Assembly: GCA_903847205.1 (NCBI GenBank)
Contig: CAINDA010000044.1
Span: forward strand, 1-64,000
Origin: an uncultured Bacteroidota bacterium
Lineage (GTDB): Bacteria > Bacteroidota > Bacteroidia > 2-12-FULL-35-15
Length of the DNA: 64,000 nt
Reading direction: 5' to 3'
This document shows, piece by piece, positions 8,317 to 56,950 of the stretch. The notes under the pieces were generated by a model. The model was not told where the DNA came from, ran no database searches, and was given only the letters and a program-made list of their open reading frames with translations. Numbering within the stretch: position 1 is the stretch's first letter; each line of letters begins with the position of its first letter. Position numbers and translations under genes: made by a program.

Positions 8317-9117
8317 TTACTCCTTAGTATGAAATTTTATTGTTTGATTTATTATTGTCTCCTTTGGCCTGTTACTTTTTGCATCAATACTTGGTTTCCA
8401 TTTGGGCATTATGGTTATTACCCGCAGCACTTCTATATCACATTCGATGCAGAGACTTTTAGTGATTTTTATGTTTTTGGCTGTTCCAAGGGTATCTAAT
8501 GTAAATCTAACGCCAACACTGCCTTCGCCATGCCAGTTAAGAGAATTCCAATTAATGTTTTTATCGAAAAAGGATAATAAGCTGTCGCGGCCGCCGGGAA
8601 ACTGAGGCATTTCTTTTTCAGAAGGGCTTTTAGCTTCAGCAATTATAAGCGGTTTGATATTGAATTTATTTACATCATTGACCGCGGGTTTTTGATTTTT
8701 TATTTCGAGCAGGACTTTTACTAAATTATCTAGTTTTTTATTGGGTACATAACCATCGAAAGCACCGCAGTCATACTCTTTTTTGTTTGTGGTAATTTTT
8801 ATGCTTGAAATATCGGCACCGTCAAAGCTGCGCCTGTTTGTTGGAGATGGCAGAAGTATTAAATCATTCAATTTATATTCAGCAATAGTATATATAAGCC
8901 CAGCCCATTGCTGTGCTGATGTTTCTGTTTTAATGATTTTTTGGCTGGCTGGCTCTCCTCTTTCTTTGATAAAAATGCTGTCGGAAGTAACAATAATAGA
9001 TTCACAATTGAGGCTGTTGCAGCTTGTGAAAGTAAACTTTACAATCCTTTCATTCTGCGCATTTAATCTTGTAAGGCTTAACAATAAAATAAGGAGGAGG
9101 GGATATTGTTTTTTCAT
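8317..9117 (-). CDS. Secreted TonB C-terminal domain protein
   Basis: This 266-residue protein has a cleavable signal peptide (KKQYPLLLILLLSLTRLNAQ) in place of the usual TonB membrane anchor. The C-terminal 100 residues form a TonB C-terminal domain: PQFPGGRDSLLSFF is the typical Bacteroidota entry motif, followed by GVRFTLDTLGTAKNIKI and the MPKWKPSIDAK strand. The N-terminal 160 residues are unrecognised and contain three Cys. Because it lacks a membrane helix, it probably does not transduce energy from ExbBD in the classical way. It may be a periplasmic adaptor. It stands alone between the DUF7793-like and AbiJ-like genes. Confidence 0.75.
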   Translation of the reverse strand: MKKQYPLLLILLLSLTRLNAQNERIVKFTFTSCNSLNCESIIVTSDSIFIKERGEPASQKIIKTETSAQQWAGLIYTIAEYKLNDLILLPSPTNRRSFDGADISSIKITTNKKEYDCGAFDGYVPNKKLDNLVKVLLEIKNQKPAVNDVNKFNIKPLIIAEAKSPSEKEMPQFPGGRDSLLSFFDKNINWNSLNWHGEGSVGVRFTLDTLGTAKNIKITKSLCIECDIEVLRVITIMPKWKPSIDAKSNRPKETIINQTIKFHTKE

Positions 9118-9204
9118 TTTAAATTGTACATCCTTTTGGCTTTATACTTTTTGTTTTTTTCACGCTTCGCTGAATTGAGGGTGAAACGCTTTTATGAACG
9201 CCTG

Positions 9205-10029
9205 TTAAATTTTATTCATTAAATAATTTACAAAAGCAGAACAAACGATCAACATAAAACGTGCCTCTTCCATGTCAACAGTAACACCTGATTCAAGCAA
9301 GCTATGTCTTATTCCTCCTTCGTCAGAAGTATAACCATAAAGTGCACTAAAAGCAGATTTTAAGCTGCCCGGAATACTGTGCTTGGCTTCAATTTCTTTT
9401 AGAGCTAGTCCAAGAGTTGTTTTATCGTTTTTAGTAATAATTTTCGCTAAAGATTCCACAGCAGAAATGGATTCTTTTATTGAATTTCTATAGTCTGGTT
9501 TTTTTCTGTCCGATAAAAGTTCCAGTGCAGTTTGAAGATGCGTTTTTACTGAAATAAATTTGTCAGAGTTTTTTAAGGCAGTTTCTATTTCAATAACTTC
9601 CTCCTTTGAATTTATTTCCATCAACTTATTTTCAATGAAACGATAAGCAGACATTTCTTTTTTTAAGAAGCCATTACAGATATCTGGAAATTTTGGATGA
9701 TACTGGGAAGAAAACTCAATAAAGTCGAAAACTAAATCCCAGTCTGCCTTAAAAAACCACTCTCTGACTGTTGGCGTCGCTTTAAATTCTGCAACTGTAC
9801 CATAACTCATAGGTAAATTGTCTATTGGGTATTTAAAAAAATAAATCCATAACTCTCTGAAATAAACGGTCAGGTCAGAGTGTTCCTGGTAGTTTTTCGT
9901 ATTACTTCGATGGTCTATAATTAATTCTAAAACTAACGTCCATAATGTATTTCTTAGATCGGACGATAGTTCTTCTTTCTCGAGCTTCGTCTTTACGGGT
10001 CTTTTGCCAAGTCTTTGTGAAAATCTCAT
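9205..10029 (-). CDS. AbiJ_NTD4-type abortive-infection-like protein
   Basis: The protein begins MRFSQRLGKRPVKTKL and continues with LSSDLRNTLWTLVLELI, the hallmark of the AbiJ N-terminal domain 4 (AbiJ_NTD4), found in proteins annotated as abortive-infection (anti-phage) factors. The C-terminal half (about residues 175-274) is helical, with SISAVESLAKII and DEGGIRHSLLES, typical of the AbiJ C-terminal HEPN-like part in which the Arg-His pair is conserved. I place the start at the ATG at 10029 (274 residues) because family members begin at this motif; the frame extends 27 codons further to 10110 without support. A role in phage defence is inferred from family naming only. The gene stands alone, next to the tandem arrays at 10.25-11.13 kb. 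Confidence 0.8.
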   Translation of the reverse strand: MRFSQRLGKRPVKTKLEKEELSSDLRNTLWTLVLELIIDHRSNTKNYQEHSDLTVYFRELWIYFFKYPIDNLPMSYGTVAEFKATPTVREWFFKADWDLVFDFIEFSSQYHPKFPDICNGFLKKEMSAYRFIENKLMEINSKEEVIEIETALKNSDKFISVKTHLQTALELLSDRKKPDYRNSIKESISAVESLAKIITKNDKTTLGLALKEIEAKHSIPGSLKSAFSALYGYTSDEGGIRHSLLESGVTVDMEEARFMLIVCSAFVNYLMNKI

Positions 10030-10254
10030 TTGTCTTAATAATTTATTTGTTTTATGGAATTTTCGAAGCATTGCAGAACTTGCTATATGCTTTTGGATAA
10101 TTATCATCACATTTTATTTTTTAAAGGTAGATTATTTAATATCACAAGTCATCATATGATGGTTTAAGTTTTGAATAATTTGCATCAAAACAAAAAAACA
10201 AAACTGTATTATGAAAAATTGATACTTTTTCATTTCTTTAGGAATTTTAGACTG

Positions 10255-10338
10255 GATAAAAGCATCTGCTCGCATCAAACTCCTAATCCCGAGATTGATA
10301 AAAGCTTCTACTCACATCAAAAACACAGCCCTATGTTT
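10255..10338. repeat. Two-copy 42-bp tandem repeat
   Basis: GATAAAAGC starts at 10255 and again at 10297, exactly 42 bases later, and the following TCTnCTCnCATCAAA is shared. The first 25 bases of each unit match at 22 positions; the rest of the unit has diverged. A bare GATA at 10339, another 42 bases on, may be a decayed third unit. No gene is evident between 10030 and 10375. Confidence 0.6.
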
Positions 10339-10375
10339 GATACAATCAATTTGATATAGCGAAGGGAATTATTAA

Positions 10376-10816
10376 AACTTGAAGGAGACAATTGAAAACT
10401 TGAAGGAAACAATTGAAATAGTGAAGGAGACAATTGAAACAGTGAAGGAGAGAATTGAAACAGTGAAGGAGAGAATTGAAACAATGAAGGAAACAATTGA
10501 AACTGTGAAGAAGACAATTGAAACTGTGAAGAAGACAATTGAAAACTTGAAGGAAACAATTTGAACAGTGAAGGAGACAACTGAAAACTTGAAGGAAACA
10601 ATTGGAACAGTGAAGGAGACAATTGAAAACTTGAAGGAGATAATTGGAACAGTGAAGGAGACAATTGAAAACTTGAAGGAAACAATTGAAATTGTGAAGG
10701 AAACAATTGAAATTGTGAAGGAGACAATTGAAACAGTGAAGGAGAGAATTGAAACAATGAAGGAAACAATTGGAACAGTGAAGGAAACAATTGAAACAGC
10801 AAAGGAAACAATTGAA
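10376..10816. repeat. 21-unit tandem array, 21 bp per unit
   Basis: Twenty-one consecutive units of exactly 21 bp share the core AAGGARACAATTGAA and differ mainly in a six-base variable segment (AACTTG, ACAGTG, ATTGTG, ACAATG and others). There is no indel in 441 bases. Because 21 is a multiple of three the array reads open on both strands: on the plus strand it would encode heptads of the type KETIENL, but it has no ATG at its head, a TAA just before it, and an in-frame TGA in unit 9. The unit contains the palindrome CAATTG. It ends directly at a TAA (10817-10819), where the next array begins. Confidence 0.9.
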
Positions 10817-10817
10817 T

Positions 10818-11130
10818 AAACGTCCGGACGTTACTCAGTAATGCGAAAACGCAACTCACAAACGTCCGAACGTTACTCTGTAATGCGATGACGTAACTCA
10901 CAAACGTCCGAACGTTACTCTGTAATGCGATGACGTAACTCACAAACGTCCGGACGTTACTCAGTAATGCGAAGACGCAACTCACAAACGTATGAACGTT
11001 ACTCAGTAATGAGAAGACGCAACTCACAAACGTCCGAACGTTACTCTGTAATGCGATGACGTAACTCACAAACGTCCAAACGTTACTCAGTAATGCGATG
11101 ACTTAACTCACGAACATATGAAGGTTACCA
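10818..11130. repeat. Palindromic 42-bp tandem array, about 7.5 units
   Basis: Units begin at 10818, 10860, 10902, 10944, 10986, 11028, 11070 and a partial one at 11112. Each has AAACGTCCGAACGTTACT, then a GTAATGCGATGACG-like half and ACTCAC. The first part is a 14-base dyad: AACGTCCGGACGTT is a perfect palindrome in units 1 and 4 and nearly perfect in others. GTTAC and GTAAC, 16 bases apart, give further inverted symmetry. The units abut with no spacers, so this is not a CRISPR array. Confidence 0.9.
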
Positions 11131-11148
11131 GGAAGGAAATATAAAACT

Positions 11149-11178
11149 TAAAAACCCCAGCATCAAAAGGGTTTTTTG
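11149..11178. terminator. Terminator-like hairpin
   Basis: A stem AAAAACCC/GGGTTTTTT encloses a loop of about ten bases and is followed by TGTTCTGCCC, the same trailer as the terminators at 15.8 and 23.6 kb. No gene precedes it on either strand within 300 bases, so it may insulate the arrays. The rest of 11179-11361 shows nothing I can identify. Confidence 0.5.
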
Positions 11179-11361
11179 TTCTGCCCAGGCAGCAAGAAAC
11201 ACATTATTACCCTGTTTGAGAATTTTACTGATTCTGAATAATTTTTAAGGACACAGATTTAAAACGGAATGTTATTATACTATTACAATACAATAGAAAC
11301 CTTATTACACAATTAAACGTGATGGCAGTTAATCTAATTAATCAGCGAAGCAAAATATTTA

Positions 11362-12234
11362 ATGATTAAACAGGTGAAAATAACGGGGATGCTTTTCTAT
11401 ATTATTTTTATTTTTTCTGCCCTAGATATTTTGGGGCAGTCCGATTCATTGAGAAAAAGAAATGCCTTGCAGGATTCTATTGAAGATTCAATTGATAAAC
11501 ACTCCCAAATTGATATTCATACGGCATACATGAGCCGTGTAGTTTATGCAGGCCGGGATTACGGCATTAATCAATACGGTGTTTTACCGGGCATTTCTTA
11601 TAAAAACAAAAATGGTGTATCGATATATGACGAAAGTTTTATATGGAGCGGCATGCAGCGAAAATATTTCAAAAATGAACTTGGCATGTCGTGGGAGCAT
11701 GAATGGTTTGATGATTTTTCGACCGATGCAGGCTATGAACGCTGGTTTATTAATGACAGCAGCGCCGATGTGCGTAACAGCCTTACAAATGCGCTTCATC
11801 TGGGATTGATGTATTTTACACGTTACCTGCATTTGAGCAGTTACAACATGTATATGTATGGTACTAACCATGCTTTTGTAAGTTCCGTAACAGCTGCCGG
11901 AAATTTTGCCATTCGTACAGGCCGTAATGGTAAACTGTATATACAGCCGTTTGCCAGATACATTGGCGGCAACTCAATTACACCAATTAGTATTTATCAG
12001 GCAGGTTATGCAAAAACAGGCGGTGCAGCCGAATCACCTTCTTCCATTTCCTTTGCAACTCTGGACTATGAGCTTGGGATGCAGCTTTTTTTTAAATACA
12101 AAAAAATTGAAATTACCCCGCAGTATATCTATGCTTTCCCTGTGAATCCCAGTTCCGAAAATCCACAAACACCGTTCGGTTATTTTACAATTGATGTGGT
12201 TTTTAAAATATTATTCAAAAAGAATAAATACTGA
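11362..12234 (+). CDS. Putative outer-membrane beta-barrel protein of an exopolysaccharide locus
   Basis: This 290-residue protein has a signal peptide ending near ILGQS, followed by alternating aromatic and polar strands typical of an outer-membrane barrel (DIHTAYMSRVVYAGRDYG, NALHLGLMYFTRYLHLSSYN, LYIQPFARYIGGNS). The last strand is IDVVFKILFKKNKY. I do not recognise a named family. Its TGA overlaps the next gene's ATG by one base, so the two are translationally coupled. A role in export or surface attachment of the polymer made by the next gene is an inference from this coupling. Confidence 0.7.
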   Translation: MIKQVKITGMLFYIIFIFSALDILGQSDSLRKRNALQDSIEDSIDKHSQIDIHTAYMSRVVYAGRDYGINQYGVLPGISYKNKNGVSIYDESFIWSGMQRKYFKNELGMSWEHEWFDDFSTDAGYERWFINDSSADVRNSLTNALHLGLMYFTRYLHLSSYNMYMYGTNHAFVSSVTAAGNFAIRTGRNGKLYIQPFARYIGGNSITPISIYQAGYAKTGGAAESPSSISFATLDYELGMQLFFKYKKIEITPQYIYAFPVNPSSENPQTPFGYFTIDVVFKILFKKNKY

Positions 12235-15200
12235 TGCAGGTTTTCCAGACAGACAATCCATCGCGGTGGAAAAAATTCAAATGGACTTTTGGACTGCTAT
12301 TCGCTTTGTTTATTATTGCCGGAATAGTTTTTTTAATCTCTATTTATTCTGCTGACCTTGCCGCTCTTCCAAAATTATCAGGCAAAACTTTTTTCGGGAA
12401 TGACAATCAACCTGCTATTAAAGATAATGGTGTTTACATCGATCCCAGCCGCTACAATGAATTTAAAAAAGACAAAGACACATTAAGCGGCAGCATTGAA
12501 CACCCTTTTGCTTTCAACATTCATAAATTAAATAATAAACATCAGTCAGAAAAACAGGATATAATAAAAGCAGCATTTTATGTTAACTGGGATCTTCAAT
12601 CCTACTATTCATTGCGCGATAACATAAGTTCGCTGAATACTATTTTTCCTGAATGGTTTATGCTTAATAATACTTCCGACAGCATCAGTATTGCTATTGA
12701 TACTAAAGCCCTGCAGATTATGCGTGAGCACAATGTAAACATCATCCCAATGCTTACTAATTTTTATAACGAAAGCTGGAATGGAAAAAACGTACACAGG
12801 ATAATAAGTGATTCCATCAACCGGCAGAAAATTATTGCCAGCATTTTATTCAACTTAAATAAATATGGTTTCCGGGGGATTAATATTGATTTCGAAGATC
12901 TGGAAGAAAAGACAGATGAAAATATGATACTGTTTCAAAAAAAATTATACGAGGAGCTTCATAAAAATAATTATTTAGTTACTCAGGATATCCCCCCAGG
13001 CAATGCCGATTATAACCTGGAAGAACTGACAAAGTATAATGATTACCTAGTTATAATGGCTTATGATCAGCATTATGCAACCGGGGAGCCGGGGCCGGCA
13101 GCATCCATAAAATGGATAGAAAGCATGATGGATAAAATAACAAATGATGTTGAACCTTCAAAATTAATATTGGGTTTGTGCTGCTATGGTTACGACTGGC
13201 CGCAAAATCAAACCGGCAATGATATAAGTTTTCAGAAGGCAGTTTCAACAGCATCGGCCCAGCATCGTGTACCTGTTTTTGATAACACTTCTTATTCTTT
13301 AAATTATGAATACCAGGATCTGCATGGAATAAAACACAGTGTCTATTTTAATGATGCCGTATCCGTTTTTAATACCATGCGGCTGGGTTATGAATATCAT
13401 GTAGGCGGTTTTGCGGCCTGGAGGATGGGCGCAGAAGATGCCCGCATGTGGAGCTTTTATAATGCCCCCCTCGACAGAGGCCATATCAGCAGTATGAAAC
13501 CTTATCAGGATAAGCTTAAAAATGTGAATACTAAAAACAGCGTTCAATATAAAGGCGAGGGTGAATTATTTGATGTGGTATCAACCCCTTCACAGGGATC
13601 AGTTTCAACCGAAAGCGACTCCATTGACAAACTAATAAGCGAGGAGAGTTATGAAAAACTGCCGGCTGGCTATATGATAAATAAATTCGGAAAAGTTTCC
13701 GATAAAAGAGTGGTGCTGAGTTTCGATGACGGGCCTGATGAAAAATATACTCCTCAGGTTATTGAAATTTTGAAGAAAGAAAATATACCTGCATCGTTTT
13801 TTCTGCTTGGAGAAAATGCCGAGAACAATATTCCTATAGTGAAAACATTATTTGAAAATAATTTTGAGCTGGGTAACCATTCCTTTTCTCATCCTAATTT
13901 CTCAATTGTTTCGGCACTCAGAATAAAACTTGAGCTGCGTGCAACAAAGCGTTTGATTGAATGTATTACCGGACGGAGTACCATACTGTTCCGCTTTCCA
14001 TACAGCGGTGATGATGATTCTGAAGCTGTTGATGACATATATCCGATGTGGGTATGTAAAACAGAACATTATTATACTGTAGGCTCCGCAATTGATCCGC
14101 GCGATTGGGAAAAAAATATAAAATCAAATGAAATTTTAAAACGTGTTATCGAGCATCAGCACCACGGGAATATAATTTTGCTGCATGATGGCGGCGGAAA
14201 CAGGGAAGAAACAATAAAGGCTTTGCCCCTCATCATACAATATTTTAAAAACAACGGCTATACTTTTACTACCGTTGCCGACATTATAGGCAAAACAAAA
14301 AATGAGGTAATGCCGCCTGATTTAAGCCAGAAAGAAAAGTTAACCAATTCAGTAAATTATTTTATTGCCAGCTTTATTTTTTACTCAAATAAAATTTTAT
14401 TGTCGCTATTTCTGTTCGGAATTCTGCTGGTGATGTTAAGGTTATTCTTTGTAATTGTTTTGGCGCTGCTTCAAAAAATTAAAACAAAACAAAAGAAAAC
14501 AATCAGCGATAATGCTTTTAATAGTTTAGTTTCAGTGATAGTTCCAGCCTTTAATGAAGAAACTACGATCTTAAAAACAGTACACATACTTTTATTATCC
14601 CGCCATAAAAATCTTGAAATTGTTATTGTCGATGATGCTTCAACAGATGACACGTATAAAATTTTGAAAGAGAATTTCAGCGGAAACCCACGTATAAAGC
14701 TATTTTCGAAAACCAATGGAGGCAAAGCATCTGCACTAAACTTCGGTGTTGCAAATGCCTCGGCGGAAATAGTATTATGTATAGACGCCGACACACAGCT
14801 TAGAAGCAATGCCATTGATGAATTGATAAAATATTTTGACAACCCGCAAGTTGCAGCTGCTGCCGGGAATGTGAAAATAGGAAATGAAGTTAACTGGATC
14901 ACAAAATGGCAGAGCATCGAATACATTACAGGACAGAATTTCGACCGCCGCGCTTTTGATCTTCTTGACTGCATTACAATTGTCCCTGGTGCAATTGGAG
15001 CATTTCGTAAAAATGTGCTGGTTAATTCCGGCGGCTTTCCCATAGATACGCTTGCCGAAGATTGCGATCTTACCATCCGTTTGCTTGAACAGGGTTACAC
15101 AGTGCGATATAGCGCGGAAGCCCTTGCCTTTACTGAAGCGCCTGAATCAGTAAAAATGTTTTTAAAGCAGCGCTTTCGCTGGACCTTCGGCATTATGCAG

Positions 15201-15632
15201 AGCTTTTGGAAACACCGCAGCAATTTTTTAAATTATAAATCGGGCACGCTCGGCTTTATTGCAATGCCCAATATGCTGCTATTTCAGTTTATACTGCCTG
15301 CTATTGCACCTGCTGCTGATCTAATAATGATTTTGAGTTTCTTTGAAGGACGTGCCAGCCAGATACTTTCTTATTACATATTATTCATCGCAATAGATGC
15401 AGCAGGTACAATTCTGGCTTTTAGCTTTGAAAAGGAAAATATTAAAAGGATTTGGCACCTTATTCCGCAAAGAATAGTTTACAGGCAGTTGATGGGCTTC
15501 ATTTTATATAAATCATTAATAAAAGCTGTAAAAGGCGAGATGATGAGCTGGGGCCAGCTTAAACGCAGCGGCAATGTTGATATCGAAAATAAAACCGCCC
15601 CTGCTGACGTTAATTTAAAATCCAGGTCTTGA
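12234..15632 (+). CDS. Trifunctional GH18 / polysaccharide deacetylase / GT2 membrane protein
   Basis: This 1132-residue protein joins three enzymes. After an N-terminal membrane helix (about 17-39), residues about 105-430 form a GH18 glycosidase domain with GINIDFED (about 215-222), which keeps the catalytic Asp and Glu. Residues about 485-690 form a NodB-type deacetylase with VVLSFDDGPD and GNHSFSHP (about 547-554), the metal-binding motifs. After a membrane helix (about 708-735) comes a family 2 glycosyltransferase with SVIVPAFNEE (about 766), DAD (about 850), AEDCD (about 940) and QRFRW (about 978), then membrane helices at the C-terminus. The combination matches processive synthases of a beta-linked GlcNAc-like polymer that deacetylate and trim it. 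The outer-membrane protein upstream fits this. Confidence 0.9.
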   Translation: MQVFQTDNPSRWKKFKWTFGLLFALFIIAGIVFLISIYSADLAALPKLSGKTFFGNDNQPAIKDNGVYIDPSRYNEFKKDKDTLSGSIEHPFAFNIHKLNNKHQSEKQDIIKAAFYVNWDLQSYYSLRDNISSLNTIFPEWFMLNNTSDSISIAIDTKALQIMREHNVNIIPMLTNFYNESWNGKNVHRIISDSINRQKIIASILFNLNKYGFRGINIDFEDLEEKTDENMILFQKKLYEELHKNNYLVTQDIPPGNADYNLEELTKYNDYLVIMAYDQHYATGEPGPAASIKWIESMMDKITNDVEPSKLILGLCCYGYDWPQNQTGNDISFQKAVSTASAQHRVPVFDNTSYSLNYEYQDLHGIKHSVYFNDAVSVFNTMRLGYEYHVGGFAAWRMGAEDARMWSFYNAPLDRGHISSMKPYQDKLKNVNTKNSVQYKGEGELFDVVSTPSQGSVSTESDSIDKLISEESYEKLPAGYMINKFGKVSDKRVVLSFDDGPDEKYTPQVIEILKKENIPASFFLLGENAENNIPIVKTLFENNFELGNHSFSHPNFSIVSALRIKLELRATKRLIECITGRSTILFRFPYSGDDDSEAVDDIYPMWVCKTEHYYTVGSAIDPRDWEKNIKSNEILKRVIEHQHHGNIILLHDGGGNREETIKALPLIIQYFKNNGYTFTTVADIIGKTKNEVMPPDLSQKEKLTNSVNYFIASFIFYSNKILLSLFLFGILLVMLRLFFVIVLALLQKIKTKQKKTISDNAFNSLVSVIVPAFNEETTILKTVHILLLSRHKNLEIVIVDDASTDDTYKILKENFSGNPRIKLFSKTNGGKASALNFGVANASAEIVLCIDADTQLRSNAIDELIKYFDNPQVAAAAGNVKIGNEVNWITKWQSIEYITGQNFDRRAFDLLDCITIVPGAIGAFRKNVLVNSGGFPIDTLAEDCDLTIRLLEQGYTVRYSAEALAFTEAPESVKMFLKQRFRWTFGIMQSFWKHRSNFLNYKSGTLGFIAMPNMLLFQFILPAIAPAADLIMILSFFEGRASQILSYYILFIAIDAAGTILAFSFEKENIKRIWHLIPQRIVYRQLMGFILYKSLIKAVKGEMMSWGQLKRSGNVDIENKTAPADVNLKSRS

Positions 15633-55714: not shown

Positions 55715-56704
55715 TTACAACAAATTCAGAGCAAACGAACCAGATTGAAGAGTATCTGGATTTACAACCATTATAAAATGATTATTGGCAAAATCGCCTA
55801 ATTGTGCGGCAGTATAAGTTGTGTTTGCACCAGGTGCGACTTCAACAAATGCAGTTCCTATTGCAGCATCTTTTACATTAGCCAGATAAAAACGAAGCAG
55901 CACAGAGCCGGTATTGTTAATGCGAATTTGATTAGTTGCAGCCAATGTGCGCTGTGCAATTGTATAAGTCTGCCCATGCTTCACGATATGACTGAAATCG
56001 GTCTGCGTATGTTTTCTAATAGTGGCTTCATCAAAATAACCGCCGATAACCTCAGGTGTTTTATAAAACTTTATCATAAGTTTAGCCAAGCCGATATACA
56101 TTTGTTCGGCAACGGCAACAGAAGCATCGAAACAGGCATCGCTTTGAATACTGCTAATATTTTTACCGTCGTTTTTTTCATCAAAAGCTTTTTTCAAATC
56201 AACGTAATAAGAGTTTACGGTTGCTTTTAAAGCTAATAAAGCAGTCGCATTAGCTGGGTCGGCAGTTGCTGCGGTTGTTAGTGCAAGCATCAGCGCACTT
56301 ACAGCATTAAGCCTGTTTATCTGTGCGCCTGTTTGATAAGGAGCATGGCCGTTTGGAAACAAAGTCATATATGGCCCGCCTGCTGTTGCCGGAGGATAAA
56401 TAAGTTTTGCTGCAGAATCCCATTGGCCTACATTGGCAGTTATTTCTGCTAATTTGGTCGCAAATGTTTCGCTGGCGCCATTTTGAATACCTCCCTGTGC
56501 TATAAAAGCAGTATAAGTGGTATTCATTGCTGTATCAAAAGGCAGCATATCAGTTTTTATCAATAATATATCTGGGTCGGCTGCATTTGCATTAAGTTTC
56601 GACATAAAAAAATTGCTCATTTTTTGAGCATTAATGTAGCTGCCTTTAATGGCAGTTAAAAAAATGTTTGACGCGATTGTCCAGGCTGGTGTTGTATTGC
56701 TCAT
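55715..56704 (-). CDS. Protein of unknown function behind a 42-bp array
   Basis: This 329-residue protein has no signal peptide and I recognise no family. The N-terminal 230 residues are Ala-rich and helical, with several helices of 20 or more residues (for example AVSALMLALTTAATADPAN); the last 90 residues look beta-rich, with LRFYLANVKDAAIGTAF and NNHFIMVVNPDTLQSGSF. That is the shape of a helical bundle plus a C-terminal binding domain, possibly self-assembling. The gene is alone, and the region upstream (56745-56950) is a tandem array of 42-bp units beginning 40 bases before the ATG. Confidence 0.6.
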   Translation of the reverse strand: MSNTTPAWTIASNIFLTAIKGSYINAQKMSNFFMSKLNANAADPDILLIKTDMLPFDTAMNTTYTAFIAQGGIQNGASETFATKLAEITANVGQWDSAAKLIYPPATAGGPYMTLFPNGHAPYQTGAQINRLNAVSALMLALTTAATADPANATALLALKATVNSYYVDLKKAFDEKNDGKNISSIQSDACFDASVAVAEQMYIGLAKLMIKFYKTPEVIGGYFDEATIRKHTQTDFSHIVKHGQTYTIAQRTLAATNQIRINNTGSVLLRFYLANVKDAAIGTAFVEVAPGANTTYTAAQLGDFANNHFIMVVNPDTLQSGSFALNLL

Positions 56705-56744: not shown

Positions 56745-56950
56745 TTTTGAAATGAAATGATCCATTCTTTGAGTGGAGAACGCTTCGTTTGAATTGAAAT
56801 GGCCTATTCTTTGGTTAAAGAACGCTCCATTTGAATTGAAATAACTCATTCTTTGGTCAAAGAACGCTCCGTTTGAGTTGCAATAACCAATTCTTTGGTC
56901 AAAGAACGCATCGTTTGAATTGTAATGGCATATTTATTTTTCAAAGAACG
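56745..56950. repeat. Palindromic 42-bp tandem array, about five units
   Basis: TTCTTT begins at 56765, 56807, 56849 and 56891, and a variant starts at 56933: a strict 42-base period. Each unit contains a dyad of the form TTCTTTGGTCAAAGAA, then CGCTCCGTTTGAATTGAAAT with minor changes. The array reads through a stop in one unit and is not coding. It ends 40 bases upstream of the start of the gene on the minus strand. The remaining 56951-57167 shows no gene; a TATCTTTA near 57117 is only a weak -7 candidate for the metzincin operon. Confidence 0.88.

Follow-up and report, generated by a model that had tools for sequence, protein, structure and literature searches.

The window, by which we mean the whole stretch of DNA analysed, comprises the first 64 kb of the 304-kb contig C44 and belongs to a genome of 5.49 Mb, whose phylum, judged by its genes and by the named relatives of one protein family (C, below), is presumably Bacteroidota. 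Two adjoining tandem arrays lie in it between divergent genes. The minus-strand gene (9205..10110), whose start faces the arrays at a distance of 273 bp, encodes a protein with an AbiJ_NTD4 domain (PF18863, E 8.4e-27) and is likely a phage-defence gene. The plus-strand gene (11362..12234), which also faces the arrays and starts 247 bp from them, encodes a 290-aa protein without a Pfam match, and no homolog of it was detected in 35 other genomes of the genus at E 1e-10. Next to it, on the same strand, lies the gene (12234-15632) for a 1132-aa protein combining GH18, polysaccharide deacetylase and family 2 glycosyltransferase domains. An inverted repeat, AAAAACCC / GGGTTTTT with an 11-nt loop (11150..11176), is placed between the arrays and the plus-strand gene and could act as a terminator; it is absent from the output of the terminator scan, whose loop limit was 8. 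The scan of positions 9000-12500 for promoters and terminators gave no more than the shuffle level. A linkage of AbiJ genes to arrays of this kind was considered and rejected: among 7 homologous loci, some with flanks ending at contig ends, an array with a period that is a multiple of 21 bp (21n) was present in the fetched flank of L196 only. In L196, an AbiJ homolog from another genome, an array with periods of 21, 42 and 84 bp is located upstream.

The array that drew attention to the locus extends over 10818..11115 and was recognised by Tandem Repeats Finder (TRF) as 7.1 copies of a 42-bp period with 91% matches and no indels. It consists of seven full units and a decayed eighth one (from 11112), and abuts a 21-bp array at 10380-10816, so that the preliminary description of 42-bp units in exact spacing beside a 21-bp array holds. 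Each full unit carries a 14-bp dyad, called here dyad 1, whose first copy AACGTCCGGACGTT occupies 10819..10832. Its copies start at 10819, 10861, 10903, 10945, 10987, 11029 and 11071, i.e. every 42 bp up to 11071-11084, and show 7, 6, 6, 7, 5, 6 and 5 symmetric pairs out of 7 in the order of the units, falling to 4/7 in the decayed one. The same description had assigned to every unit this dyad or a near-palindromic variant of it, which agrees with the exact AACGTCCGGACGTT in 2/7 full units and 5 or 6 pairs of 7 in the others; the outer arms are invariant across units and the four central bases differ. A second dyad, first seen as TGCGAAAACGCA at 10842..10853, has its centre 22 bp from that of dyad 1 and also recurs every 42 bp. 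With 4, 3, 3, 4, 3, 3 and 2 pairs of 6 in the seven units it is weak taken alone.

The array as such cannot be a product of chance. Dyad 1 taken alone can: perfect 14-bp palindromes number 7 in the 64-kb window against 5.9 expected, two of the seven being units of the array, and shuffles of the 42-bp consensus yield local dyads as good as its best one (P 0.56). The same applies to the 21-bp array (P 0.91) and to a related 63-bp array described below (P 0.79). By itself, the 42-bp array would pass as an ordinary minisatellite. The dyad gains weight because it recurs in that 63-bp array and because the class of arrays to which both belong is, taken as a whole, significantly palindromic.

The internal structure of the unit points to a shorter monomer. 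The two halves of the 42-bp unit are identical at 12/21 positions (P 0.001), and the consensus shifted by 21 against itself gives 24/42 matches where shuffles reach a maximum of 15.8 on average (P 0.001); the unit originated long ago as a dimer of a 21-bp monomer. The adjoining array (10380..10816) comprises 20.8 copies of a 21-bp period, with TRF reporting 84 bp as well, and has CAATTG in many of its units. One plus frame of it reads as coiled-coil-like heptads (TIENLKE) broken by one stop, which is probably accidental. A genome search for the dyad, as had been proposed, revealed dyad 1 in one further array, at C12:20261-20568, which has a period of 63 and an internal period of 21 (32/63 matches when shifted by 21 against itself). 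This array is homologous to the 42-bp array and stands upstream of a gene of a protein family called here B, and the orientation of the match is that expected if the minus-strand neighbour took the place of the family B gene. Since the 42-bp unit has 21-bp halves, the adjoining array has periods of 21 and 84 bp and the C12 array one of 63 bp, 42 bp represents one multiple among several of a 21-bp pitch.

TRF gave a second 42-bp array in the window itself (56746..56950), located 42 bp from the start codon of a minus-strand gene (55715..56704) that encodes a 329-aa protein, and this was the clue to a wider class. On contig C44, 11/12 non-coding arrays with a score of at least 100 have a period within 1 bp of 21n, the twelfth having a period of 66; this count takes in the two arrays of the locus, though a 250-aa minus-strand frame made the script label them as coding. 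In 200 kb of G120, a genome of an unrelated genus, 3/3 such arrays fit 21n, and so does the sole one found in 40 kb of the congener G010. The array under study belongs to a class of non-coding arrays, most of them in the 5' flank of a gene, that keep their pitch while the letters change. The pitch of about 21 bp corresponds to two turns of B-DNA, and the higher-order units measure 41-42, 63, 84 or 105 bp. Arrays of 35 and 14 bp, both multiples of 7, were observed beside 21-bp ones in a single bin (L207, 1279-1468, and L210, 1490-1583), and may hint at a 7-bp sub-pitch. Repeats of another kind are present on the same contig: at about 219-304 kb (L072-L076) long coding repeats of about 250-470 bp are contained in very large open frames, and their products are possibly surface adhesins.

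Three protein families were found with such arrays. The 329-aa protein represents family A (about 330 aa), for which AlphaFold2 predicts helices and a C-terminal beta-domain with a mean pLDDT of 86. In the fold search small beta-domains, with PirA at the top (Z 9.9, rmsd 4.1, 92 residues), came closest to the C-terminal domain, and the helices weakly match coiled-coil stalks; no function was drawn from these matches. The genome has 12 family A matches, some of them partial, and the family was detected in 9/36 genomes of the genus and, with at most 7 candidates scored per genome, in 21/295 genomes and 8/155 genera of the taxonomic class. Two family A genes, in L061 (C28:152000-160769) and L060 (C56:1-9000), resemble each other closely and have related arrays; the copy in L061 is split into two reading frames. 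From 99 family A loci, 93 were left after removal of identical upstream ends, and 72/93 have an upstream array of period 41-43 ending 36-558 bp before the start, the total including 7 loci with less than 400 bp upstream, one of which has an array. The array units are mostly unrelated in sequence between loci.

The placement of the arrays relative to family A genes is one-sided. When flanks shorter than 600 bp were excluded (leaving 85 upstream and 49 downstream flanks of the 93 loci), arrays within 1 bp of 21n were present in 65/85 upstream and 0/49 downstream flanks (P 1e-20, the loci not being independent, as some are close paralogs). Five additional upstream arrays have periods that are multiples of 41 (82, 123), as has one of the three downstream arrays (82), and with multiples of 41 included the figures become 70/85 and 1/49 (P 7e-22). 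The remaining 15/85 upstream flanks contain no array that reaches a score of 100.

Family C (about 205 aa) is helical, with a fibronectin-III match that is weak and below the cut-off, and its profile is unrelated to that of family A. It was detected in 20/295 genomes of the taxonomic class, representing 11 genera. Its flanks, counted under the same 600-bp rule (28 upstream and 26 downstream of 30), show the same asymmetry, with arrays within 1 bp of 21n in 18/28 upstream and 0/26 downstream (P 1.5e-7). One additional upstream array has a period of 124, 9/28 upstream flanks are without an array of score 100, and the family C gene in L148 is without an array. Named records contributed 21 family C loci, some of which (L200-L203) seem to have been counted already. 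Of these 21, 19 had usable upstream sequence, and 13/19 have an array with a score of at least 100 and a period within 1 bp of 21n not more than 800 bp upstream. The arrays precede family C genes in Pedobacter planticolens, Mesonia hippocampi, an Ignavibacteria bin and a Limisphaerales (Verrucomicrobiota) bin. The family C gene of Flavobacterium endophyticum has no upstream array and a weak downstream one, and that of Prosthecobacter debontii has a two-copy array at a distance of 843 bp upstream and, on its downstream side, one of 62 bp that is 2.9 kb away.

Family B proteins (122 aa) have basic ends and occur in 4/295 genomes of the taxonomic class; the best hit in a fold search had an E of 4.2. 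All five genomic loci have 21n arrays upstream, or 6/6 with the homolog encoded by a Kovacikia minuta plasmid (Cyanobacteriota), where an array of 42/84 bp is situated about 300 bp upstream. One of the family B arrays is weak, with 2.4 copies of 41 bp at a distance of about 470 bp. Downstream of its family B homolog, the plasmid has a further 41-bp array, with 2.8 copies (L199, 3976-4088). Outside Bacteroidota, the pairing of an array with a gene of families A-C was seen at single loci in Ignavibacteria, Verrucomicrobiota and Cyanobacteria.

Neither neighbour of the 42-bp array belongs to these families, and most arrays on C44 are likewise orphans without an adjacent family A-C gene. A search of the contig for remnants of families A-D (E 10 for A and C, E 1 for B and D) returned nothing besides four intact genes. 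The array was also compared with 58 other genomes, 35 of them from the genus, with no match at E 0.01. The preliminary description had expected the spacing to be conserved in relatives: pitch and symmetry are indeed common to them, but the letters are not. It had also interpreted 42 bp as four helical turns suited to cooperative binding by a dimer, and the helical-phase geometry proved to be real and wider than claimed, with related arrays repeating at 21, 41-42, 63, 84 and 105 bp. The dyad array has a further copy in the genome and the pitch recurs in relatives, the opposite of what had been named as grounds for abandoning the idea.

The symmetry of the units was assessed in 68/72 family A arrays (agreement of at least 0.8). 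Best-axis pairing was 0.57 in comparison to 0.48 in shuffles, with a mean z of 1.85 and 32/68 arrays above 2. When the axis was set on the near arms alone, pairing in the far halves was 0.454 against 0.253 in shuffles (P 8e-12). The units of family A arrays are imperfect palindromes with a second dyad axis half a unit (20-21 bp) from the first, a symmetry that is not universal, as many units have z near 0. Family C arrays follow the same trend (mean z 2.8, 11/20 above 2), although z may be too high where long units contain internal repeats.

Periods of 21n are all divisible by 3, and it was considered whether the arrays could code for peptide repeats of 7 (heptads) or 14 residues. The 250-aa open frame on the minus strand spans both arrays of the locus, at least one of six frames is open in 50/72 family A arrays, as short units easily allow, and a purine signal at 2.9 bp was detected in 16 period-41 arrays. 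Against this, all six frames of the C12 homolog are interrupted by stops and the frame is not kept across homologs, a period of 41, found in 18/72 family A arrays, shifts the frame, and the 3-bp harmonic is absent from 51 period-42 arrays. It is unlikely that the arrays are coding, and their service as peptide repeats is highly improbable.

The order of array and gene in families A-C, from which the gene beside the 42-bp array is excepted, could also reflect an RNA function similar to that of type III toxin-antitoxin systems, with transcribed stem-loops that bind the downstream protein and co-evolve with it at each locus. The array units do fold as stem-loops, pairing is weakest at the centre of the axis as in a loop, and changes of both partners that keep the pairing number 10, with about 2.8 roughly expected. 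Cognate RNA antitoxins differ in letters between loci, and so do the array units. A hairpin that works as RNA can be expected to accept G-U pairs only on the strand that forms it, and equal numbers of G-T and A-C mismatches at paired columns speak against RNA; the observed 94 and 79 (P 0.29) show no bias, a result that is compatible with RNA too. The antisense strand folds more stably than the sense strand in 49/72 units and 44/72 arrays. Homologous 41-bp arrays of one genus point in opposite directions with respect to their genes in L114-L116 and in L119-L120, with 29/41 matches in the opposite orientation, 20-21 in the same one and at most 23 in shuffles; the inversion comes from this one group, and the array of L038 looked flipped in one comparison and was ambiguous in another. 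RNA hairpins do not need periods locked to about 21n, and Rfam at gathering thresholds gave no match in the window. Families A, B and C have no Pfam match to a toxin at the curated cut-off, nor any Pfam or NCBIfam match to an endoribonuclease of the ToxN/CptN/TenpN kind, and no such fold is among those listed for A and B, though a toxin of that kind could escape these comparisons. The strand and inversion evidence favours a feature acting at the DNA level and disfavours sense-strand RNA hairpins; we regard the RNA explanation as rather unlikely.

If the arrays belong to DNA, they could still be functionless palindromic minisatellites generated by slippage or by a process that counts helical turns, their linkage to families A-C marking the sites where they are tolerated. 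Fast turnover of letters, the frequency of orphan arrays and higher-order units of 21 bp, typical of satellite growth, all fit such a by-product. It does not easily account for the upstream-only placement across unrelated families (families A and C taken separately, as counted above) or for dyads that are maintained despite the change of letters, and we regard this origin, too, as rather unlikely.

The patchy distribution of families A and C and the family B gene on a cyanobacterial plasmid could suggest mobility, either of MITE-like elements enclosing the arrays or of array and gene as one cassette, and Porphyromonas MITEs contain 41- and 23-nt direct repeats according to the available passages of PMC4596501. 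On the other hand, no exact inverted repeat of at least 11 bp at a separation above 700 bp surrounds the arrays of the locus (9901-11700 examined), the arrays share no common sequence, and family C has no match in plasmid and phage collections at E 1e-5. A mobile element is, in our estimate, a distant contender.

The interpretation that we put forward, tentatively and at somewhat below an even chance, is that the arrays constitute a non-coding DNA lattice serving as a multivalent operator- or iteron-like platform for a putative dimeric protein. This extends the dimer idea of the preliminary description, in which a dimer is a reasonable candidate for the binder. Such a protein would line up along one helix face of the lattice and, once bound, would regulate the adjacent gene or be co-regulated with it. 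Given the change of letters from one locus to the next, each array probably has a binder of its own, either the adjacent product or a partner of it; a common binder could not read letters so different. The 42-bp array would then be an orphan lattice, which may share its putative binder with the C12 array and would answer in trans to the protein that binds upstream of the family B gene. Several observations weigh against the lattice: the 42-bp array has no adjacent family A-C gene, its dyads alone are not above chance, and part of the family A and C upstream flanks, as well as the family C gene in L148, are without an array. The search for a candidate DNA-binding protein identified none, and the family A and B models contain no DNA-binding domain. 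No Rep, Par or HTH regulator gene was seen adjacent to the array or in families A-C. The base composition of the arrays has no 10.5-bp harmonic, and TAnnTTTG, the Bacteroidetes promoter motif, is not enriched on the sense side around 92 arrays.

A more specific version of the DNA lattice may be formulated as a two-part element, consisting of a palindromic lattice of 21-bp pitch and a protein that would assemble along one helix face of its own lattice. The protein would be small and helical and would carry a beta-domain, a fibronectin-III-like end or a basic tail. Pitch and two-fold symmetry would be the conserved code and the letters would drift; the element would be shared by Bacteroidota, Ignavibacteria, Verrucomicrobiota and Cyanobacteria, with orphans like the 42-bp array as targets in trans. 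We hold this version possible but doubtful, having rated it slightly lower because the dyads of the 42-bp array are at chance level alone and the family C gene in L148 is without an array.

A class defined by helical pitch and symmetry and not by letters would be invisible to sequence-based annotation. If functional, it provides a handle on three protein families of unexplained function; if not, its existence suggests that some mutational process measures length in helical turns. No description of such a repeat class was found in searches of the open-access literature, where the minisatellite MITEs of Porphyromonas and the TAACTGA repeats came nearest.

Among known systems, type III toxin-antitoxin loci (ToxIN, CptIN) place a tandem repeat array immediately before a protein gene, and this array acts as RNA on an endoribonuclease. 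The arrays of families A, B and C also stand upstream of a gene and vary in letters by locus, but the strand comparisons gave no sign of RNA here and no toxin family matched at the curated cut-off. The TAACTGA direct repeats of Beggiatoaceae, Cyanobacteria and Bacteroidetes are intergenic and many lie near start codons, as stated in the passages available from PMC4679880. They resemble the 21n arrays in their intergenic position and their patchy occurrence over Bacteroidetes and Cyanobacteria, and 7 bp divides 21, whereas they consist of a fixed heptamer in place of a pitch with free letters, and those passages mention no dyad lattice (PMC4679880). The BrickBuilt and 464/PgRS MITEs of Porphyromonas gingivalis contain intergenic direct repeats of 23 and 41 nt, and of 22 nt too, near genes (PMC4596501, in part), and share with the present arrays the occurrence in Bacteroidota and the tandem intergenic arrangement. 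Each of them is one sequence family in a MITE with terminal inverted repeats, in contrast to the 21n arrays, which are mostly unrelated in sequence, and the passages of PMC4596501 at hand report neither a link to families A-C nor a pitch common to unrelated sequences. Where those elements have one repeat sequence at all copies, the dyad of the 42-bp array is present in two arrays only. Iterons and partition-site arrays (parC, ParA operators) are helix-phased repeats that hold a protein on one face of the DNA and are often located upstream of the gene of their binder. The 21n arrays differ from them in that no replication or partition gene was seen beside the 42-bp array or in families A-C, and in having letters that vary by locus and a binder that is putative, and resemble them in the direct repeats set in helix register, with periods near 21n.
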